Under the pieces are notes generated by a model that had not been told where the DNA came from, ran no database searches, and worked only from the letters and a program-made list of their open reading frames with translations. From positions 13,572,501 through 13,636,500 of the forward strand of contig NC_092562.1 in assembly GCF_037975245.1 (NCBI RefSeq): a DNA stretch of 64,000 nucleotides, written 5' to 3'. Below, piece after piece: positions 1,412-20,914 of the stretch. The stretch's first letter is position 1; every line of letters begins with the position of its first letter. This DNA is from Apostichopus japonicus (lineage: Eukaryota; Echinodermata; Holothuroidea; Aspidochirotida; Stichopodidae). Position numbers and translations under genes: made by a program.

Positions 1412-1972
1412 ACAAGCATGCAGTTGGTTAGGCCTCATCTGAAGTATGCTGAACAGGCTTGGAACCCATATTTTGCTAAGGATAATAAAGTACTCGTACT
1501 GGGTCCAGAGGAGGGCTTCTAGGGTGATTAGTTCCTTAAAGAGTGTTCCTTATTATAGGCGGTTACAACTGTTGAATCTCACTACACTTGAGCTTAGGAA
1601 GTTACGTGATGACTTGTTTCAGGTTTTCAAGATTGTGTATGGTTTTGACAATTTATCCTTCAATGACTTGTTCATGTTTGCTAATAGTAGTTGTACCAGA
1701 GGTCATTGTCTCAAACTCCAAAAGTCACAAAGTAGGATTAATATTTGGCATAATTTTTTTTCTATTAGGGTTGTGAATGAGTGGAAGGGTTTGTCTGAGA
1801 AAGTTGTACTTGCAAGTAGTGTGAATGGGTTGAAGATTGCTTTGGACAAGCACTTTAAGCATTGTCACTAATCGGGTCTGAGTGTTTGTGTCTTCAGTTC
1901 TTTCTCTCTCCTATAGGGTTCTTGATGGGGACTGAGTGTCCCTCCTGATCACTTTTTCTACTAAATTTAACT
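1412..1972 (+). mobile_element. 5'-truncated CR1-like LINE copy (3' end of reverse transcriptase plus 3' UTR)
   Basis: The translation, broken by at least one frameshift near 1500, matches the C-terminal part of a non-LTR reverse transcriptase ORF: QLVRPHLKYAEQAWNPYF, then QRRASRVISSLKSVPYYRRL, then VVNEWKGLSEKVV. The 3' UTR shares blocks (CTGAGTGTTTGTGTCTTCAG, GGTTCTTGATGGGGACT, TCCCTCCTGATC) with the minus-strand copies at 39036-42050 and 13972-14155. It ends in a TAAAC/TAAAT-type tail. The reverse transcriptase palm is absent, so this is a dead 5'-truncated insertion. Assignment to the CR1/L2 group is by overall motif resemblance. Confidence 0.85.
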
Positions 1973-2450
1973 AAATTATTGCGTAAGACAACGCCAATAT
2001 TTATGACGTTACAAAATCCTTGTCCAATTTTTCAAACCCTCATGCATTTAATGCCTTATGGCAAAAGTATGATTTTTATGAAGCTTTAGTGATATTTTGC
2101 ATCTGACAACAACACAATGATTTATCATTTTACTGTGACAATTTGATTTGTAAATGTTGTTATTTTTCTTGATTACATTGTAAATTATTTCTTCATATTT
2201 CAATGATACTACTGCTACAAATGTGTTTTATTTCGATGAAATTCTGGATACTGATGATATTGGTAGCTCAGCAAAGATTTCTAAATGTATCACATATCAA
2301 GTGATTTACCACATATCAAGTTTATTACGTAATCACATATCCAGGCTAGATCAGCAAGAAGATAATGATAGAAAAGTAAATATAATGGAAGATTAGCTAC
2401 CATGCTGATGTATGTATGTGTGTATGTGAGTGTGTGTATGTATCTATGTA
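1973..2450. other. AT-rich spacer with no recognised feature
   Basis: AT-rich sequence between the LINE fragment and the SINE. A short direct repeat of CACATATCAAGT lies near 2290-2325. The GT/ATGT-rich stretch at 2405-2450 is the tetranucleotide tail of the adjoining minus-strand SINE. Confidence 0.4.
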
Positions 2451-2668
2451 TTTTAGATCTTCCTGCAAGCAGGAACTCGCGAAGAAGCCATCATTGGCTT
2501 ATCAAAGCCATAAGCTGACCAAAGTCAGTCTCTTAGATTCATATTTTAACGTCCATGATTATGAATTGTCAATTGTCAACAACTCTGTAACTGGACGACA
2601 TATACATTAATCTTGGAGTGACTCGAACCGGGGACCTTATGATTGAAAGGCACCGGCGTTAACCACTG
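2451..2668 (-). repeat. tRNA-derived SINE, copy 1 (head truncated)
   Basis: Minus-strand copy of the SINE family also found at 6831, 12105, 21505, 30408, 44838 and 51001. It keeps the B-box region, the body (GTCCAGTTACAGAGTTGTTG, CATGGACGTTAAA, GAGACTGAC) and the tail, but lacks the first bases of the tRNA-like head. The tail is a tetranucleotide (ATAC)-type repeat, seen as TGTATGTATG on the plus strand to its left. Confidence 0.9.
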
Positions 2669-2731
2669 TCTGGTTGTCTTGATAGTCTTGTTAAGACCCT
2701 ATATAGTATGAACAGTTATAGTGTACCTTCT

Positions 2732-2952
2732 TTTTCAAGAAGGAATTTTGCCCGCAGCTATTGCTATACTGCCCAGAGAACGCCCGCGGCAACGCTTTCG
2801 ATATATACTCCTCGGGCATGTCAAAAACAGTGGGCAAGCACATTCGTGGTAGGCAGAAACGGACTCTGAGGCGCATATATAGTTGCGCGCGAGAAAAAGA
2901 GTTTTACAAACGACTTGGCCAAGTCTACCATGATGACATTACAGACCACTAA
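2732..2952 (+). CDS. Possible terminal exon of an unrecognised small basic protein
   Basis: An open frame reads from about 2732 to a TAA at 2950-2952 without an internal ATG start. It is less AT-rich than its surroundings and gives a plausible basic peptide with a furin-like dibasic run (GRQKR, about 35 residues before the stop) and three cysteines. A candidate splice acceptor (CCCGCAG) ends at 2757, inside the frame, and would shorten the exon. No family is recognised. It could be the last exon of a secreted precursor or a chance open frame. No upstream exon was identified. Confidence 0.2.
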
Positions 2953-3190
2953 CTTTGATTCACTTCCCGTATTAAAAGGAAGGGTGTCTTCAGTCAAAAA
3001 TAGGTTAACATTCAATCACAGATATATCAAATTAGGGACAAGATATTGATGTGGGGTTTTAAACTTATATTATGAAATATATTTCTCTTTTTCGTTTCTC
3101 AACAAGGAAAACTATGGAGTCACTTTTACTGACCTTCCAAGATTACTACTCAAAAATGTATATTACATGCCAATGTATATTACGAGTAAA

Positions 3191-3455
3191 GTCCCTGGGA
3201 TAAATCTTACGGCACGATGTATGAATTAAGCGTATCTAAGCGTAGCGCCACCATGCGTTGGCGCGAAGCGTACAAGAAAATATTGGCTGAAAATGCCTCC
3301 CAGATCGCTGGAAAACTTCCCAAGCCTTGTAAATTGCATCTAAGCATTTTCTATTTTGAAATTACTAGCGATATCATAAAAAAAATATGCTCAAGGAGGG
3401 GGCGGTCGCCCCCTTCGCCCCCCCCCCCACCTACTTGGCTACGCGCCTGGTCACA
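3191..3455. repeat. Truncated dispersed repeat containing the GTACGCTTCGCGCCAAC motif
   Basis: The stretch around 3225-3320 has the inverse of a motif (GTACGCTTCGCGCCAAC...GTGGCGCTACGCTTAGATAG) that recurs at 10630-10685, 19768-19815 and inside the four hAT MITEs. Next comes a G-rich then C-rich low-complexity stretch and GGCTACGCGCCTG. It is probably an old non-autonomous transposon with unclear ends. Confidence 0.5.
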
Positions 3456-3732
3456 TATCCGTAGTCAATGCATGCTAAGTTCTTCAATACCTCCCTTATT
3501 TACGTTCGGGGAAACATTTCATACTGTAGTTTGATTTTTGCTCCATTATCTGCCATCGGAATATCCCTTTAACTTTTAACATATGTTGCTAGCAGTTTCA
3601 CGACATTAATGCTTGCATGTACAATATTAACCACCACACATCCTCCGGTCTGGTTAAGTATAGTCAACCACTATCATTCCTAAGAAGAAACGACATTCTT
3701 TTGACCATCGGTTTTCATTTAAGGGATTAAAA

Positions 3733-3883
3733 AGGAAGGGAACCGGTCTTAAATTTGATTTGAGACCGATGATGACGTCATCGAGGAGGCTGAGCGGACC
3801 GAGGCGATAGCCGAGGTCCGCTGCCCTTCTCGATGACGTCATCAGAGGTCTCAAATCAAATTTAAGACCGGGTACCCTCGTTT
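3733..3883. mobile_element. Palindromic foldback element with paired TGACGTCA sites
   Basis: The left arm (from GGGAACCGGTCTTAAATTTG at 3738) and the right arm (ending CAAATTTAAGACCGGGTACCC) are inverted copies over about 70 bases. Each contains GATGACGTCATCGAG. The short centre is also inverted (ACCGAGGCGATAGCCGAGGT). The whole unit is a near-perfect foldback of about 150 bp, typical of a palindromic MITE. No clear target duplication was found beyond AT-rich flanks. Confidence 0.75.
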
Positions 3884-4500
3884 TTATCCCCATTCATAAA
3901 TGACCCTCACAAATGTTAGAAAACGGCATTTTTTCGCAAATTTTTGCTGATCTGTATTTAATTCTCCTAATGCCTCCCTTGATCTTTTTCCAGAATGACG
4001 TAATAGTAACCTCATTGTAAAACAGCATTTTCTTCCGACGAACATTAAGAGTGAAAAAAATACGAATGAAGCAGTGTCGTTTGGTCTTAAATTTTTGTAC
4101 TTTTATCCATTCAAACACTAAAAAATGGAGGCAAATGCAAATTAAATAAGTACAGATGAACAAATTTCTAAAGATAACATTGTAAAACGTTTTTTTGACC
4201 TATCAGGTCAAATTGCGCAATAAACAGATGCTGAGTTGTGTGTGTTCTGGAAAGTCCGTAAACACTACAACACAGTTAGGATAGCAACGTTGCTTGTTGC
4301 TAACAATCTTTTGAGTAGAACTCGTCTATCCCTGGTCGGTACATGAACCGTTCAAATAAACGTTTACTGGACCTGAGAATGAGCAGTTTTTGAAGAGGTT
4401 CCGAGCTCCATTGTTCGACAGGTGTTTTTGTAGTAACCGCAGTGTTATTGCGAGTCTGAAAGATCGTTAGGCCTAGTCCCTGGTCAGTAATGTCATTACT
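3884..4500. other. Spacer with no recognised feature
   Basis: AT-rich, with open frames that look random. Nothing recognisable was found. Confidence 0.35.
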
Positions 4501-4507
4501 GCTAGTA

Positions 4508-5000
4508 GTATAGTCAGTATTGCGAAGTTCGCCATACTGCGAAGTTCGGGCACCCTAAGAAATACACGATTTTCACCATGAAAACCTACAGGAAGAGCCA
4601 AATTTCACCAAAAAGTACGAAGCTACAGTTATTTTCTCTCCAAAATGACCCGTGTGCAAGAAATTACTTACATATTTGTCAATAAAATGACGAAGATCTA
4701 TGAAGTCTGTTATAATTACTGAAAGAGCAACAGCGCCACCGATTTTTACCAGCGCCACACTGTAGGTTGCGTGGCCGAAATTCGCAATACTCTAGCAAGA
4801 AATACCAGTTCCACAATCACGAAGAATCTTCTTGGAAAACAACGTGAAAACAGTTTGCAGGAAAGAAAGTTTGGCCGTGTATCGTACTATAACAAAATTC
4901 TCCCACCATATGAAGTATATTTTCAAATGATTTATACCAGAAGATTTAGTTTTGGGGTGTTTTAAGTCTTAAGTGGGCGAACTTCGAAGTCACCATCCTA
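4508..5000. repeat. Possible short inverted-repeat element
   Basis: GCGAAGTTCGCC at about 4520 is matched in inverse orientation by GGCGAACTTCG near 4977. They bracket about 450 bp without coding potential. This could be an eroded transposon, but no target duplication was established. Confidence 0.25.
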
Positions 5001-5484: not shown

Positions 5485-6830
5485 CAGTATACAGAAAGTT
5501 TGTTTAGGCATTTATGAATGCAAAGTAACTTATGTTATAAATCATAAGCGTATGATTGCGACGTAGGAGGGGGGGGGGGAAGAGTCTGAGCGGACCAGGA
5601 GCCTATATGCCACTATCCCGAACCTCTTTTTTTAAACCTAGGAATGCAGTCCACGACGTTATTCGATCGTTCAGCTAGCGAACGGACAGCCAGACAATCA
5701 ATTCATTATTGCTCGAATCTTTTTTTTTTTTCTCTTTCTTTTTTTAAGGATATTTAGTAGAAATTCCCTATAATTCGATAAAGTTTTGAAATTATACTGG
5801 ACATGAAACAGACGAACTACCAAGATATATTCCATGCCAATGAGAAAATTTGACATTATTTAAGAAACTCGTCGAACTTTGGGGATAAGAAGTCGAAATT
5901 GCGAGGAAAAATATATAAAAAAAATAAAACAAATTTCGTCATAGAAAAAAAAAGTCATAAATCTTGAGATAAATTACTCGTAACATTCTGATAAATCGAC
6001 ATTTTTATTTTAAAAATATATATGTAAATTAAAAGAAGTAAAATCAAGGAAAAAGAGAAGATAGTACCTTGGGGGATGGGGAGGGGGGGTGAGATGTTAA
6101 GCTTAATTCCGGTGTACGAAAGTCTATGTTTTGAGAATGTCGTCGTAACATGACAGAATAAGGACAGATTTAAAGTTAACGAGACGACATAGCTGAATAC
6201 AGACACTTCCCCTTGAAGTGCTCAATGCAGTTCCAAACTTAATATCGGAAAATTGTGTTATTTTGAAATTTGAGACTATAGTATTCTCATTTTATGAAAT
6301 AAAAAAAACTTCACTAGTAAACAGATTTTAGTACCAAGATTTCCAAAAGCGTTACAAATCAGGATTTTTCAAGGATTTTCTAGTGACAAATATTTCTGAA
6401 ACTTATATTGAAAAGAAAAATATTCCAAACTGCTAGTTGGAAATCGCCATCTTAATATTTTGCTCCTAACTCGATATGTGATTGATTGAATGTAACCTAT
6501 TTTGACTGGGTAAACCCTCAACTATACTGAAAGAAGTTGGATCACAGTGGGGGATATGTGATGGCATCTGGGGATATGTTCTCCCGCTAGCTTTACTCAG
6601 GATATTATTTCCACCCACGCCTCCCTTAAAAAAAAAATTGATTTATAATTGTAACCTGACATATCATTAACTGGTAGGTCGCGTGGTCAAACTGATTGAT
6701 AGTACAAGTTCAGTTTGTTCATACCGTTTTAATTTTGAATAAATTTGACATCATTTGAATCTAAATATCATTTGCATATTTATAATATGTGTGTATGTAT
6801 GTATATGGGTGTGTGTGTGTATGTATGTAT
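5485..6830. other. AT-rich spacer, nothing recognised
   Basis: Low-complexity AT-rich DNA with homopolymer runs (G at 5568-5579, T near 5720). The GT-rich stretch at 6787-6830 is the tail repeat of the next SINE. No gene is supported. Confidence 0.4.
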
Positions 6831-7781: not shown

Positions 7782-9607
7782 CTACTGATTGGATAAGCAA
7801 GTGTCGTGAAGAAACTTGTTTAATAGTGACATTATTTGCGCTCTTGTTATGGACATGACTTGAGTTTGATTGAGTCCTAAGGGCAAAGATGTTAATACTC
7901 CTGCTTTCAATATGACAGAGATACTGCGATGGGAGTAATGTACAGCTATGGGCAACTGTGAGGGATCTGGCCGTCTCATCTGGAATTCTTTGGATGTACT
8001 ATTGCAACTGAATGGCACCTGAAATACGGTTTCGACTTGCTCTACTAAACTAAAAATGTCTACTAATCCATCTGACAAAAACTGAGCAAAGCATAACATA
8101 TCTGACACGTGAGGTTTACCTACAGCTATAAAAGTTGGATTGGACTGCCACTCGACTTCACCCATCAATCTCGCCACACGAGTATAATCGTTGCTGGTGC
8201 CATATACTAACGCTGGAACAATGCCTTCATAGATGGTAAATGAATCCTTGAAAGGTGGCGAGCAAGCTGGAAACTGAAATGGTAGCACGTCAAAGTCGGA
8301 CATCCAACCCCCGCCCACAGTAGCCATGGCGACGTATCTCAAAAAGCAAGACATTTCGTATTCTTTTCTATTTATTGTTGGTAACTGTTCAAATTTCGCT
8401 CGAAGACTCAGGTAATCTGGGTGTGTCTTCGCGTCCTCTTCGCTAAGTATACGAGGATTCCAACCGGCCAATGTCCACGATTCTGTCCATATTTGTAAGA
8501 TTGCCGCCTGTATAATACGCTCTTCTTCAGCGATCGCATTAATCTTTTGGAAGTAAGTATAAATGACACAATTCGTATTATTAGAGGAGGTAATATCGTC
8601 GCTGTGGTAGCCTTTGCGGTCTGCGCTCATCTTGTGTGTAATATCGTCCCTTTGGCGTCTTGTAGTACATTCTTGATAGCGCGATGCGAGCGTATCCGGC
8701 GTTAAGTCTAACTCTGGGTTTTGCAGCTCCGAACTATCGTGAAGATTCATCGAGTAACCTAAAACACAAAAATCGATCGCGTAAAGATTGGTCAACTTTG
8801 CCCAACTAGCTGAGTTGTAGTGTTTAGAACAATCGAGCTGAATCATTTCAGATTGCAAAGAAGATGTGTCCATATTTATTCTGCTGCCGAGGTCAAGGAT
8901 ACTCTGGTTCCAAGTTTCAAAGACTAAGAGTTGATCCATATCAAATTTTCCCGAGGAACGGAAAAGCATACCGACTTGTGTTTGAAGATGTTCGTTACTT
9001 TCAATGTGAACATCTCCGCCGGGAAAAAGAGATCTTTCCATGAAAGCTTCAAATGACGACGAGGTGACGTCATCAAAGAAAAAGCCCGCCAAATTATTAT
9101 CAGTTTTATGGTCAATCCACTCTTGAGATAAAACTTTCCAAACGGAGTGCAGTCGTGAACACGGATGACGGACTACGGCGAATTTGTAAAAATCTTGAAA
9201 GGCAATCGCGTCAAATTCGTCGATTTTATGGTATCCTCCTAAGGGATGTCCCCCCGTCACTCGTCTTTGATCGTCAAAAAGATATGACGTTTCGATGACG
9301 TCGCCACCGGCGAGAGGGATATGAATAAACAACAGTTGGTGCTCTTCTGAGATTTGACTATATTTGGGTGCAATGGGGTATTGGAGGATAGATTTCGATG
9401 ATCCTTTCTTGCAATATGGATGACCGGCTAGTTTATCAAATCCTGGACCGCAAACCCACGCGTTAGAATTGTCATTACGACATACTTGAGAGGGTGGATT
9501 ATCTGCGTCACCTTTTTTAATGACCTCTAACGACCAGCCGTTTGGACAGTTTGCCATTAGCAAACCACCGGTACTCGTGGTTTCCACTTGATGATCGGCA
9601 ACAGTAT
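7782..9607 (-). CDS. Catalytic exon: sulfotransferase-like domain fused to a DXD glycosyltransferase-like domain
   Basis: The exon starts at 9607 after a minus-strand acceptor (TTTATTGCACAG) and runs to the stop at 7782. Its first complete codons follow one base from the previous exon, so it enters in phase 1. Joined to the exon at 14802 it gives 683 residues. After a Cys-containing stem, HIPLAGG (about 171-177) and VVRHPCSRLHSVW (about 220-232) resemble the 5'-PSB and 3'-phosphate-binding motifs of membrane-bound sulfotransferases, here with the usual PSB lysine replaced. The C-terminal half has R-x10-GGGWMSDFD (DXD near 513-515), as in glycosyltransferases with a sugar-binding DXD region. 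A Golgi-lumen role in modifying glycans is inferred from family knowledge. Donor and acceptor sugars cannot be told. Two enzyme-like domains in one chain is unusual. Confidence 0.8.
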
Positions 9608-9792
9608 CTGTGCAATAAAAAACAAATCATAACATCAACCTCAAATTAATATGATAAATATTAGTTAAAAATAATAGTCACTGGTGTTTTTAAAAAATTT
9701 CAAAAAATAAGAGAGAAATCATTGTATATATATTTGCCTGCACGATCACAGAATATCATTGGAGGAATTGGAACAACTAGCGGTACAATGTA

Positions 9793-10398
9793 CCGTAAAA
9801 AGGGGTAACTTTGGCAGGTTTTAGGCTTATTTGTCGAATAAATAAAGAGTATAATAATAAAAAAAACACGTTTCTTATGTTAAAAATGAACATTGGCATT
9901 CTTATGTATTTATATAGATCAAATTTGATGTAAATATGTGGTGTTCTTAAAACTTATGTGATAAGTAAACCCCAAAAAATGATTTTTACATTTGGGGCAA
10001 CTTTGGCAGGTATATACAGTACTAAATCAATAGTATAAAAAAAATAAAAAAATATTCAATCAATTTTTTGCAAAAGTTTATTTTTTGGACATTGAGGGGG
10101 CTGGGATTCGAAGAAAAACTCTCAAAACCAAAAATAATACTTAGAGCGGCAATGGGAGCTTGCACAATATTTATGCAAATTAGCACATTATTTCCTAATT
10201 TCAATTGTTTACAAATTATTTCAAATAGTATCTATCATAATAATCATGTTGGCAAAATGTTCTACCCTTTATACCCCCAAACATCACACGAAATCACAAT
10301 ATTGAAACACTGTCGAAAATAGAGGGCAGTCGGTCAATTTAATAAAACCCCTTAACTGCCAATATTACCCCGGGTGCCAACGTTACCCCGTTTTACGG
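9793..10398. mobile_element. Non-autonomous inverted-repeat element with TA flanks (Tc1/mariner-type)
   Basis: The left end CCGTAAAAAGGGGTAACTTT (from 9793) and the right end, inverse of CCGTAAAACGGGGTAACGTT, form about 20-bp terminal inverted repeats flanked by TA at 9791-9792 and 10399-10400. GGGGCAACTTTGGCAGGT recurs inside. There is no transposase frame. It lies in the intron of the minus-strand enzyme gene. The superfamily is inferred only from the TA target. Confidence 0.7.
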
Positions 10399-10507
10399 TA
10401 ACACGCCGGATTATCTTGTAATATTAATATGGGGGTTGGGCGGGCGGATGGAGGAGGGGATCGGAATCTGAAGGCAAGTACTTTTGTGAACACTGTTTTT
10501 TTTTTTT

Positions 10508-10745
10508 TTTTTTTTTTGTAACCCGCTAAAAATTGGTTGATATTCATCACATCGCGTAAACGTAAACTAACTTATGTAATTACATTTACTATAAAATTGT
10601 ATTTTATCTGGGAGGCATTTTCGGCCAAACTTTTCTTTTACGCTTCGCGCCAACACATAGTGGCGATACGCTTAGATAGTTTGCCGACAGGCTTCGCTCC
10701 CCCCTTGGCAATTTCCTCGCTATACGCGCCTAAGCGTATATGGAC
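10508..10745. repeat. Fragment of a dispersed repeat with the TACGCTTCGCGCCAACACA motif
   Basis: After a T-run at 10497-10517, positions 10630-10685 carry the same TTACGCTTCGCGCCAAC...GTGGCGATACGCTTAGATAG block found at 3225, 19768 and within the hAT MITEs. The ends are not definable. Confidence 0.45.
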
Positions 10746-10781
10746 ATGACGGTGTTACGATACGTGAGTATATATCACGGG

Positions 10782-11222
10782 TATAGCAAGCCATGTGGGA
10801 CAAACACCGCATAATATATCAGCGTATTAATTGGAATTTATACGCGTATTAATTGGAATATATACGCGTATATTATTAGCCAATCATATGGCTTAAATAT
10901 ATCCGCATATTAATTCGAATATATACACGTATTAATTCGAATATAGACACGTATTGATTCGAATATATACACGTATTAAATAGAATACATATGGGGATTA
11001 AATCCAATTTATGCACGGATTAATTCGAATGTACACGAAAACACACTTCCGCTCTTGCTGTGTAAATATATCAACGATAAATATTTTGGCGGGCTTGCGA
11101 GATCGCTTCAAAAAGCGAAACTATACGCATGTACAACACATGTATATTCAATTAATACGCGTATATATTCGAATTAATACGCGGATATATTATGCGGTGT
11201 TTGTCCCACATGGCTTGCCATA
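10782..11222. mobile_element. Foldback element FB2 with 22-bp satellite-like arms
   Basis: The terminal inverted repeats of about 40 bp start TATAGCAAGCCATGTGGGAC on the left and TATGGCAAGCCATGTGGGAC on the right (inverse). They are flanked by a perfect 6-bp duplication CACGGG at 10776-10781 and 11223-11228. Inside each arm is a degenerate array of a 22-bp unit (CGTATTAATTCGAATATA). The unique centre (about 11025-11140) has no gene. The layout resembles TU/foldback elements of sea urchins. Confidence 0.85.
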
Positions 11223-11857
11223 CACGGGCCTCTTGGAAGTGTATCTCTACTACACAAGATCAGGGCTTGGGATGTTAAGTATACAATACCGATTACGACG
11301 TACATTGTGTTTCTGCCATTATTTGGCATCTATAAACGTCTTTCAACAATCGTAATGTAGCGGTTGATTGATCAGGGATTCTGTTATGTAATTTGAGAGA
11401 AACGGTTATTCTAAAAGCGAATTCCATCCGCCGTCGGACTGTCTTTACTATATAGAACAGCATGATTGGTATTCTGGCGAAGAGATGCCTGATAGATAAA
11501 CAAGTTGGATTATCAACCTGTTTTTCTTTTCCAAAGAGGAAATCTGCTAAAGTGCAAGCCAGGATAAAGTGCGTAGGTTTATTCATCTCAAAATTCCTAT
11601 CGTTAAAGAACCTTCATTTCTAATTTTGGGCTCCCACAGTCTGTGTACTAGCTATACCCCCTCGCCTTCTACAATTTATTCGTCTACTTTGGGTGATAAT
11701 TTAGGCACCCGGCATCCACCCCCCCCCCCTACTTCTTCTACGTCTCTCTTCCTCTCTCTCTCGCTTGCTACACGGCCGAATGTCCCCATATACATAACGT
11801 CTTTTTAATGTGGGTCTTACCTAACCACTAAGTTCACTATCACCTTATAACACCTAT
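11223..11857. other. Intronic spacer with no recognised feature
   Basis: Mixed sequence with a C-run near 11718 and CT-rich DNA to 11765. No coding or repeat feature is recognised in this part of the intron. Confidence 0.3.
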
Positions 11858-11892
11858 AGGAGAGTTAGCTCAGTGGTTTCCGCCGGTGCCTT
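11858..11892 (+). repeat. SINE head fragment
   Basis: Only the tRNA-like head (GAGTTAGCTCAGTGG...CCGCCGGTGCC) is present before a T-run interrupts it. It lies 250 bases upstream of a near-complete copy of the same family. Confidence 0.6.
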
Positions 11893-12104
11893 TTTTTTTC
11901 ATACCTTTATTTGCAAACCTTAAAAGAGCTACATTAGAACATATAACGAATTATGGTTGTCTTTATAAGTAAAGCATTACTGTCTTGGTTGTTGAGACTA
12001 AAGAAGTGTTTCGCGCAAAAATCTGTATGACTACGATCATCAAGGAAGATGCATTTGTTAAATCAGCAACCGCTAGTCGATCATTAATATCTTTAAAAAC
12101 TTTT

Positions 12105-12340
12105 AGGAGTGTTAGCTCAGTGGTTACCGCCGGTGCCTTTCACTCATACGGTCCCCGGTTCGAGTCACTCCAAGATTAATGTATGTCATCCAGTTACAGA
12201 GTTGTTGACAATTGACAATTCATAATCATGGACGTTAAATATGAATGTAAGAGACTGACTTCGGTCAGATTGCGACTTTGATAAGCCAATGAGGCTTCTT
12301 CGCGAGTTCCTGATTGCAAGAGGATCTAAAATACATGCCA
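12105..12340 (+). repeat. tRNA-derived SINE, copy 3 (near full length)
   Basis: It starts GGAGTGTTAGCTCAGTGGTT and has a B-box region (CCCCGGTTCGAGTCACTCC), the full body with GTCCAGTTACAGAGTTGTTG, and ends GAGGATCTAAAATACAT. This copy is the clearest view of the family's head. Its terminal GGAGT/ACTCC pair mimics an acceptor stem. It is not a functional tRNA gene because the anticodon arm is degenerate. Confidence 0.93.
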
Positions 12341-13253
12341 TTAAGTTTTTAAAGACCATGGCGACTTTGGAGGAACAAGATCGCATCAAATACCTTTATC
12401 AATTTGTTTATCTCAATTGCTTGACAGTATTATGACGAAAATGTGTTCAACACCTCACATTATTTGGAAAATGTTATAAGTCGTACGTATCTTCCAAAAG
12501 ACCAGCTGCTGTAGAATTTAATATTCCGTATATTATCCGAGGATTTTGTTCTTATAAGCCATTGAAAGCAATTAATTCTCGTTAAGCCACTGGTCAAGAT
12601 GGATTCAGTGCCTTTGTTCTCAAATACTCTGTCGAATAGATCGTTGGTAGCTTGACTCATATAATTCTAAACAACACCTATTAGATGTCATGTATATTCC
12701 CTACGAAATGGGGAAAAAAAGCGAAAGTTAGGTCAATCTTCAAAAATAATTCCAAGCTTAACATCTCAAACTATAGACCCATATCCATTCTATACCGGTA
12801 TTACCAGATTATCAGACTTGAGAAAATACAACTTTCACAAAGTACCTTGAAAACTTACTACGAATTGCCCAGTCTGGTTTTAGAGAGAATCATTCATGCG
12901 AAACTACCCTCATTAAGATTATTGATAAATGGATGGAAACTAACGACAATGGATACAGTATAGAGCCGTCTTTGTTCAACTTCGAAAAGTCTTTGATCTT
13001 GCTATAGGCCTAATCACAAATATCTTGTAACAAATGTGACATATGTATGGCTTTTCCGCGATAACACACTCAAATGGTTCGGAACATACCTTATACAGAA
13101 AGGGTGCAAAGTATACGTACATAGACAAAGTTTCTTCTTTTTTACCGAATATTCATAGTTTAATTCACCGTTTGAACTGGGATTATAGGACTTCGCATAC
13201 AAAAGTTACGGTGCCAAATAGCCCCCACAGTGCGGAAAAACTAGGGTTTCCAA

Positions 13254-13644
13254 CAGTGGCGGAGCTAGGGATATTGGTCAGGAGGGGCGAGAATGGTCTG
13301 TACAGGGCAATTTCGACATTATCTAAGCGGAGCGCCACCGCCGGTTGGCGCGTAGCGTATACAGAATTTTTCTGAGTAAAGATACTCCCTAGATCGCCAG
13401 AAATGACCCTTTCCGGGCCTTGCTAATTTGCAGATAAACGAAGAATAAATAGGTGTCATCGCGAAATTACACCAACAAAATGTGACAAATGTCAATATAG
13501 GTAGATGAGAGCGCAATAAAAAAGTCAATAATCGCGAATGAGTAAAAAGTGGTAAAGAGCTGAAAAGGGCGCCAGCAGTTCATTTGAGTCCGTCAGGGGG
13601 CATCGCCCCCCCCCACCCCCGACTGTATGGACGCTCCGCCACTG
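13254..13644 (-). mobile_element. hAT-type MITE, copy 1, with perfect 8-bp target duplication
   Basis: The ends are CAGTGGCGGAGC and its inverse GCTCCGCCACTG. The element is flanked by GTTTCCAA at 13246-13253 and 13645-13652. About 390 bp with no coding capacity. The interior shares CTTTTTACCACTTTTTACT and GACACCTATTTATTCTTCG-type blocks (inverse here) with copies at 37646, 51353 and 62279. An 8-bp duplication plus CAGTGGCGG ends are hallmarks of hAT elements. Confidence 0.95.
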
Positions 13645-13971
13645 GTTTCCAAGTGTACTCTCATTGAAAATGTCCTAAAAAAAATTTTCATTTAAAATTG
13701 GCGTAAGGTTACCGTAATATATGGATTAAGGCATACACCACCTGAAAGCTAACCGTTTAAGCTTTCAAAATATGGATGGTCCAATATGATTGACTAAATA
13801 CACATGAGAAGATACAGGTCAAAACACACACAAAATGGCTCTTGCGCTACACAGTTAAAGACCCTCACGGAGTGCCATGAGCGCTATGTTCCGTTATGCA
13901 ATGGAAGTGGCCTCTGCAGGGTGCCACAACAGGGTTCAATTCTTGGGCCATTACTATTTCGCATCTTTCTT

Positions 13972-14155
13972 AGTTTAGTTTAGTTTAAAAATGTAAAAAA
14001 AAAGGATCAGGAGGGACACTTAAGTCCCCATCAAGGACTCTATAGAGAGAGAGAAAAAAACTGAAGACACAAACACTCAGACCCGATTACAATGCTTAAC
14101 CTTGTCCAAAGCATTCTTAAACCCATTGACACCTCTTGCAAGTACAACTTTCTCT
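13972..14155 (-). mobile_element. CR1-like LINE 3' end fragment
   Basis: Minus-strand 3' UTR and last codons: the AGTTTAGTTTAGTTTA tail, GGATCAGGAGGGACAC, AAGTCCCCATCAAGGAC and CTCAGACCCGATTACAATGC are shared with 39036-39170. It sits between the GSILGPLLF and YADD blocks of the other LINE, so it inserted later. Confidence 0.85.
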
Positions 14156-14576
14156 TAATGACACAGTGGCCCTAAGCCTACACCACTGTCTTGTATAGGC
14201 ATGTACGCGGATGACACAACATTATATTTATTCGATACTAATATTCAGGAACTAAACATGAAGATACGGAGGAAGATGTTTCTAACATAAAAAGAGTGGT
14301 GTATAAACAAAACCAATGGTAATGAATTCAGTAATGAATGTTAACGAAACGATGTTAATATCTTCAAAGCTCAAATTTTCATAAAGCCCACAGTCGCATC
14401 ATTTTTTTCTACTTCGTTTTCCTTCATCTTTAAATTCTGTTGCTTTTTCTTTCTTGCTTTAGTTTTTGGCTATTTGTTTACCTTAGTTTTACTTTTATGG
14501 GCATCGGGGGGAGATTAGCATTCTAGCTAACCGAGTTTTACCCTTCTGTCAAAAGTTAAATAAATATATAAATTAC

Positions 14577-14802
14577 CTGCAACGACTGTTAGTTCACTGG
14601 CACTTATCATTCTTGTTATACTACTCAGTTTAGCGTGTTTTTCTTGGCGATTAATTTTCCCTCCATGCAAGAAGGAACCTTCGTGGTTAAGAGGCAATAA
14701 TGTTGGTCGTTCCAAGATTGTTAGGTAGAGAACACCGCAGAGGAACAACAAACACAAAAACAAATCCTTGAGATCAATACTATGGTGATATAGTCTTGCC
14801 AT
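14577..14802 (-). CDS. First coding exon (membrane anchor) of the sulfotransferase/glycosyltransferase gene
   Basis: ATG at 14802. The 75 codons plus one base encode a short tail (MARLYHHSIDLK), a single hydrophobic anchor at about residues 13-30 (LFLCLLFLCGVLYLTIL) and a stem. It ends at GCAG/GTAATT with the donor at 14576. Phase 1 matches the acceptor at 9607 and forms an Asp codon at the junction. The 4,969-base intron between them holds a mariner-like element, a foldback element, SINE pieces, a LINE and a hAT MITE. The short tail, anchor and stem layout is that of type II Golgi transferases. The joining is inferred from phase, strand and distance, not from a transcript. Confidence 0.65.
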
Positions 14803-20682: not shown

Positions 20683-20914
20683 CTCTAGAAAATACATCAC
20701 CATCTCTTGTCATGTGTACTATGCCCTGAATTCTGTCACGATTTCCATGGTGATAACTCTTCCCAGGAGGTGATGAGGAAATTAGCAAGGTGTCTCGTTG
20801 CCTCAGTGGCGGTTTAATTGAATTCCAGACTGCAAAATAGATACCACCGCATAAGAACATACTCCTTAAAGCGAAAATAAGTAACGACCGGTTTCTTAGG
20901 GTAAAATTTTCCAT
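20683..20914 (-). CDS. Alternative or paralogous first exon encoding a type II membrane anchor
   Basis: ATG at 20914. The 77 codons plus one base encode MENFTLRNRS, a hydrophobic anchor at about residues 11-29 and a hydrophilic stem. It ends AGAG/GTAAAA with the donor at 20682. Layout, strand, length and phase 1 match the exons at 14802 and 773. It could splice in frame to 9607, giving 685 residues, as an alternative promoter/first exon. It could instead be the first exon of a paralog whose own catalytic exon has been lost. There is no sign of a second catalytic exon between 20682 and 14803. Confidence 0.45.

Follow-up and report, generated by a model that had tools for sequence, protein, structure and literature searches.

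Predicted sulfotransferase-like and glycosyltransferase-like halves on one protein in a paralogous gene family of Apostichopus japonicus

The window analysed here, a stretch of 64,000 nucleotides from the Apostichopus japonicus genome (contig NC_092562.1), carries on its minus strand a gene whose two exons (Table 1), joined by sequence, form a frame of 683 codons plus a stop codon. Exon 2 by itself holds a four-cysteine stem, a sulfotransferase-like (ST) half and a glycosyltransferase-like (GT) half with a DXD motif, all in a single frame. An earlier note on this DNA had proposed one two-exon, 683-residue protein with an anchor and both of these domains. Reading of the frame bore this out, with both domains in exon 2, and the motifs that had been quoted were recovered from the window protein: HIPLAGGD of the 5′-phosphosulfate-binding (5′-PSB) region, VVRHPCSRLHSVW with the core of the 3′-PSB region, and GGGWMSDFD.

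Table 1. Features of the two-domain gene and its surroundings, in window coordinates.
Feature	Position	Strand	Remarks
Exon 1	14577..14802	-	226 nt; contains the start codon and encodes the hydrophobic anchor (residues ~12-29) and the first part of the stem; donor in phase 1
Intron 1	9608..14576	-	GT...AG, phase 1
Exon 2	7782..9607	-	1826 nt; both domains and stop codon in one frame
Four-cysteine stem module	9411..9548	-	shared with L014 and L015 (ST only) and L021 (GT only)
Sulfotransferase-like (ST) domain	8640..9371	-	Sulfotransfer_2 type
5′-PSB region HIPLAGGD	9300..9323	-	lysine replaced by Leu
LGGYHKI	9222..9242	-	GGH in all other ST rows except L002 and L011
3′-PSB region VRHPCSRL	9150..9173	-	intact
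Glycosyltransferase-like (GT) domain, unmodelled family	7785..8579	-	viral-family profile and motifs
GGGWMSDFD, DXD motif	8289..8315	-	alignment
HVSDM, conserved second motif	8097..8111	-	alignment
AVHYSH, conserved late histidine	7929..7946	-	possible metal ligand
Candidate alternative first exon	20683..20914	-	hydrophobic stretch, phase-1 donor fitting the exon 2 phase; membership unproven

The exon 2 protein matched its own genome at 23 places at E≤4e-41, itself included (genome match counts are lower bounds throughout). Several of them are long open frames with both domains (37-44% identity), and chance was excluded as an explanation for exon 2. The 23 places resolved into 21 genes, of which 12, the window gene among them, are intact and two-domain; six hold the ST half only (L014, L015 and L017-L020), and one (L021) consists of the stem and the GT half. 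Another two-domain paralog, L012, is disrupted mid-gene and was excluded from all counts; its 5′-PSB region (IPHAGGT) is also without the lysine. L016, with its upstream part masked, was counted for the GT half only. The ST-only genes lie on contigs C3, C9 and C17, on which the GT half had no match, and searching the genome with each half separately at E≤1 brought no additional gene, the sole extra match being a weak one of the first half on C8 (E=0.398). In L009 and L010 the linker after the stem is made of NPHS-type repeats, whose number varies among paralogs. The joining at 14577/9607 rests on sequence only and could in principle hide a gene-model artefact in which two adjacent genes were fused. 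This is very improbable, since both domains lie in one unbroken exon and the arrangement recurs in 12 genes, spread over contigs C2, C16, C18 and C19; two separate genes for the two domains were rejected on this ground, which covers exon 2 but not exon 1.

The profile searches supported a sulfotransferase-type first half. Of 20 aligned rows, 18 matched the Pfam profile Sulfotransfer_2 (PF03567) at E≤1, the best of them at 9e-15, and phrog_3347 matched all 11 ST domains submitted (window E=5e-07). The window copy itself reached 17.2 bits (E=0.0059) and so fell below the Pfam cut-off of 22, which was exceeded by paralogs on C3, C9, C16, C17, C18 and C19 in a genome-wide profile search that did not list the window copy. 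The best solved chain for the ST profile, 5t03 (heparan sulfate 6-O-sulfotransferase 3), was a weak match (E=0.039). With 76 Sulfotransfer_2 matches in the genome, over contigs numbered up to C23, the window-type ST appears to be one branch of a large genomic sulfotransferase set. At C1:1237266-1317076, 11 Sulfotransfer_2 matches lie in tandem, in open frames of 274-278 residues. COX1 on contig C35 has Asn for AAA, Ile for ATA and Ser for AGA at positions conserved in this protein, which is the echinoderm mitochondrial code; COX1 features together with the spread of Sulfotransfer_2 matches over contigs tentatively suggest a sea cucumber. Viral contigs gave 50 pattern matches for relatives of the ST half, none of which was confirmed, and in named phages the window ST half was without a tblastn match.

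Alignment across the paralogs confirmed that the 5′-PSB lysine is replaced in the window copy. It was lost in four of the 12 two-domain genes (Leu in the window and in L002, His in L011, Gln in L013) and kept in the other eight and in all six ST-only genes. The suggestion of the earlier note that the ST half may be inactive fits the window copy. Because eight two-domain genes retain the lysine, the coupling of sugar transfer with sulfation appears more plausible for these genes than for the window gene. L011, which lost the lysine, the 3′-PSB arginine (the only such loss in 18 rows) and GGH, has the most diverged ST half (33-41% identity to six other genes) and a normal GT half (38-46% identity to five genes). 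Six of 15 forks in the ST tree and six of 12 in the GT tree were open and long branches met, so that the trees do not settle how often the lysine was lost independently. L002, at a distance of 0.82 Mb on the contig of the window, is a near-identical copy (98.6% over 4.6 kb) that could stem from a recent gene duplication or from a duplicated stretch in the assembly. Among close pairs, in which differences are few and single values therefore unreliable, a ratio of nonsynonymous to synonymous substitution (dN/dS) was obtained for the ST half in nine of 12 pairs (0.17-0.75) and for the GT half in all 10 pairs, nine of them below 1 and L006/L010 at 1.21. Loss of the lysine that binds 3′-phosphoadenosine 5′-phosphosulfate (PAPS) in only some two-domain copies offers a natural series on double enzymes losing one activity.

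The window ST half might instead be active without the lysine, by way of another residue, which would make the protein a true double enzyme. The 3′-PSB region retains both Arg and Ser, and conservation of the half is similar to that in paralogs bearing the lysine. A histidine directly follows GGY; GGY itself, in the window and L002, is a departure from GGH, the histidine of which we take to be possibly catalytic. The basic residue of the 5′-PSB is near-invariant among sulfotransferases, and its mutation abolishes most of the activity. The sub-threshold Pfam score also speaks against an active enzyme, as do the differences between the window and L002, both replacements in the ST half and both silent in the GT half, at two each too few to weigh much. 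An active ST half in this copy is considered unlikely.

For the GT half, nothing credible was found in Pfam, NCBIfam or PDB sequences, and no named transferase family matched. The library scans returned a few lone hits, none stronger than E 0.037, to families that are unrelated, the solved structures held no relative (the best, unrelated-looking, had E 0.26), and PHROG gave two single, weak, unnamed matches. GGGWMSDFD is a DXD motif as in Gly_transf_sug (PF04488), and DXD is common to many families. Membership in Gly_transf_sug was rejected after zero matches with seven proteins at E≤10 and with 32 rows at E≤0.1; a search of the genome with this profile stayed silent, as did its controls, and carries no information. 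The half was placed instead in a family that these libraries do not model and that has relatives in viruses. The lack of a named family would suit a non-catalytic, lectin-like module, the protein then being a sulfotransferase to which a binding domain has been added. However, DXD, HVSDM and the late histidine were kept in all 14 animal rows with a GT half, even where the PAPS site was lost, and such a module is judged improbable, somewhat more so than an active ST half in the window.

Scanning of viral contigs with the animal GT profile gave two loci; a widened profile gave six loci and then 141 relative-encoding stretches, the best 80 of which, duplicates included, were retained (viral family members, all from environmental viral contigs, are L052-L059 and L061-L137). 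When eight animal and 24 viral rows were aligned, two tryptophans and both DXD aspartates were invariant, and the aspartate of HVSDM and the late histidine were present in at least 90%. A profile built from the 24 viral rows alone detected the window frame at E=3.9e-47; among 581 further targets (381 window frames and 200 shuffles) it matched nothing else. These viral rows had in turn been gathered through a search that started from the animal profile. The GT half thus appears, by sequence, to belong to an unmodelled family shared with viruses of bacteria. The conserved DXD, HVSDM and late histidine support a metal-dependent transferase, the viral relatives being equally uncharacterised. Two scans of bacterial genome contigs, with 24 and 13 pattern matches, confirmed no relatives, a weak negative given that the patterns were few and short; tblastn of named phages gave no match for the window GT half or for three viral GT queries, and plasmids gave none to one viral GT query.

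The surroundings of the relatives were surveyed at 84 loci (L054-L137, duplicates included), 83 of them viral, as L060 is from the animal's own genome. The GDP-fucose synthase encoded at L061, identified against solved chains at E=2e-83, was matched at E≤1e-8 in six of the 84 loci, strongly in L061, L062 and L063 and weakly in L056, L064 and L066; the remaining 78 had no match at this threshold. For comparison, a capsid relative was present in 54 of the 84, and related phages are not independent in such counts. GDP-mannose 4,6-dehydratase was also encoded in L062 and L063 (8e-131 against solved chains for the L063 gene). In L062 its frame (2384-4339) is interrupted by some 335 inserted residues, possibly an intein, in which a LAGLIDADG_3-like match reached 20.2 bits (cut-off 22.5); a second transferase-like frame was noted at 4453-4995 of the same locus. 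Among eight frames picked by eye, neighbours in L056 and L064 were general epimerases, one in L061 was a Polysacc_synt_2 protein and one in L084 a polysaccharide pyruvyl transferase. These neighbours place the nearest viral relatives among polysaccharide genes and make GDP-fucose a candidate donor; the hint comes from the neighbours of three of the 84 loci, and other nucleotide sugars are candidates as well. A further L084 frame next to the viral transferase (6187-6792, minus strand), which starts MNIISFPRSGQHLIESVL and resembles a sulfotransferase 5′-PSB there, was unconfirmed by profiles, with no match to the animal ST profile or Pfam at E≤0.1, and was rejected as a sulfotransferase.

The hydrophobic, anchor-like start that had been claimed for the protein was present in exon 1 and would fit a type II anchor. 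GTAATT directly follows exon 1 on the donor side and ...TTGCACAG directly precedes exon 2 on the acceptor side; in most of the aligned paralogs printed, the acceptor AG was at or near the equal place. Exon 1 is nevertheless less well supported than exon 2. When 1.5-3.1 kb of upstream DNA per paralog was screened for the combination of ATG, hydrophobic stretch and phase-1 donor, candidate anchor exons turned up for three of 11 paralogs (L013, L017 and L018), that of L013 ending RIIASEVT as compared to RMISASELT at the end of exon 1. The candidate exon farther upstream in the window (Table 1) could be an alternative first exon or the beginning of another gene; a 95% copy of it was observed upstream of L002 (C2:14415573-14415800). 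Elsewhere in the window, a 142-residue open frame at 1443-1871 (plus strand) was considered as a retrotransposon reverse-transcriptase end, a reading rejected when no Pfam match came up at E≤0.1.

The reading that best accounts for these results, and which is held to be probable, is that the gene encodes a type II Golgi enzyme whose GT half most likely works and whose ST half, in this copy, is probably dead. The family would comprise echinoderm type II Golgi glycan-modifying enzymes with, in order, an anchor, a four-cysteine stem, a Sulfotransfer_2-type domain, a linker and a DXD-bearing, metal-dependent domain of glycosyltransferase type from the unmodelled family. The two-domain frame, the paralogs, the residues and the homologies are observed, whereas Golgi location, catalysis, coupling and loss of activity are inferred. 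In those paralogs whose PAPS site is complete, sugar and sulfate would most likely be added to one matrix polysaccharide, the C-terminal half extending or branching the polysaccharide and the N-terminal half of lysine-bearing copies sulfating the chain that it handles. In the window copy, where the lysine for PAPS binding is missing and GGY stands in place of GGH, the ST half would probably serve as an acceptor-binding or structural module that binds or positions the chain. The single open frame across both halves in 12 genes supports this reading, as does the separate occurrence of each half elsewhere in the genome. Several points weigh against it. The DXD motif was part of the last viral search pattern, and its invariance in the viral rows is therefore partly a product of selection; the transferase fold is drawn from motifs, neighbours and homology to uncharacterised viral proteins. 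In addition, the window ST half showed 49% identity to L003, L006 and L013, with 47-49% for the GT half. With the two halves equally conserved, the idea that the ST half is a decayed relic found no support, and if catalytically dead it seems nonetheless to be maintained for some other role.

A bolder version of the probable reading joins the viral GDP-fucose neighbours with the sulfated fucans known in echinoderms (PMC11468063). The family would then make sulfated fucan or fucosylated chondroitin sulfate, a GDP-fucose transferase of a new family being fused to a chain-decorating sulfotransferase, with the GT domain exchanged between viruses of bacteria and animals and with dead-ST copies setting sulfate-free sites. 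This is speculative and unlikely to hold as a whole. In PMC11468063, the fucosyltransferases that build brown-algal sulfated fucans are stated to be unknown, and characterised sulfotransferases are said to be lacking for echinoderms; the same article gives echinoderm genomes an average of 79 GT10 members, a rival source of fucosyltransferases. A sea cucumber study reports expansion of both sulfotransferases and fucosyltransferases (PMC10213396), and candidate algal fucosyltransferases are described as biochemically uncharacterised in a third article (PMC13380512). A sulfotransferase joined to an unmodelled transferase, some viral relatives of which lie near GDP-fucose genes, provides concrete candidates for makers of sulfated fucan. 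Among the papers listed, in part only the best-ranked ones, no title or start of abstract described an echinoderm sulfotransferase-glycosyltransferase fusion; eukaryotic protein databases, which lie outside these searches, may well contain entries of this architecture.

Compared to the carbohydrate sulfotransferases of Sulfotransfer_2, the window protein has its PSB motifs in equal order but differs in being fused to a second enzyme-like domain and in having lost the lysine. The common match of the ST domains, phrog_3347, is annotated Galactose-3-O-sulfotransferase, a phage-library label and not a tested function. With the environmental viral transferase-like family the protein has YTY, W..W, GW, DXD, SD and a late H in common, most of them nearly invariant. 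Unlike the animal protein, these relatives are mostly stand-alone frames of ~185-257 residues, and the animal ST profile had no match at E≤0.1 in the 84 loci bearing GT relatives. In combining two catalytic modules the family would resemble other type II Golgi enzymes with two activities, such as NDST and EXT1/EXT2. NDST pairs a deacetylase with a sulfotransferase and EXT1/EXT2 pair two sugar transferases, and the window family, with its sulfotransferase-like and glycosyltransferase-like halves, differs from both.

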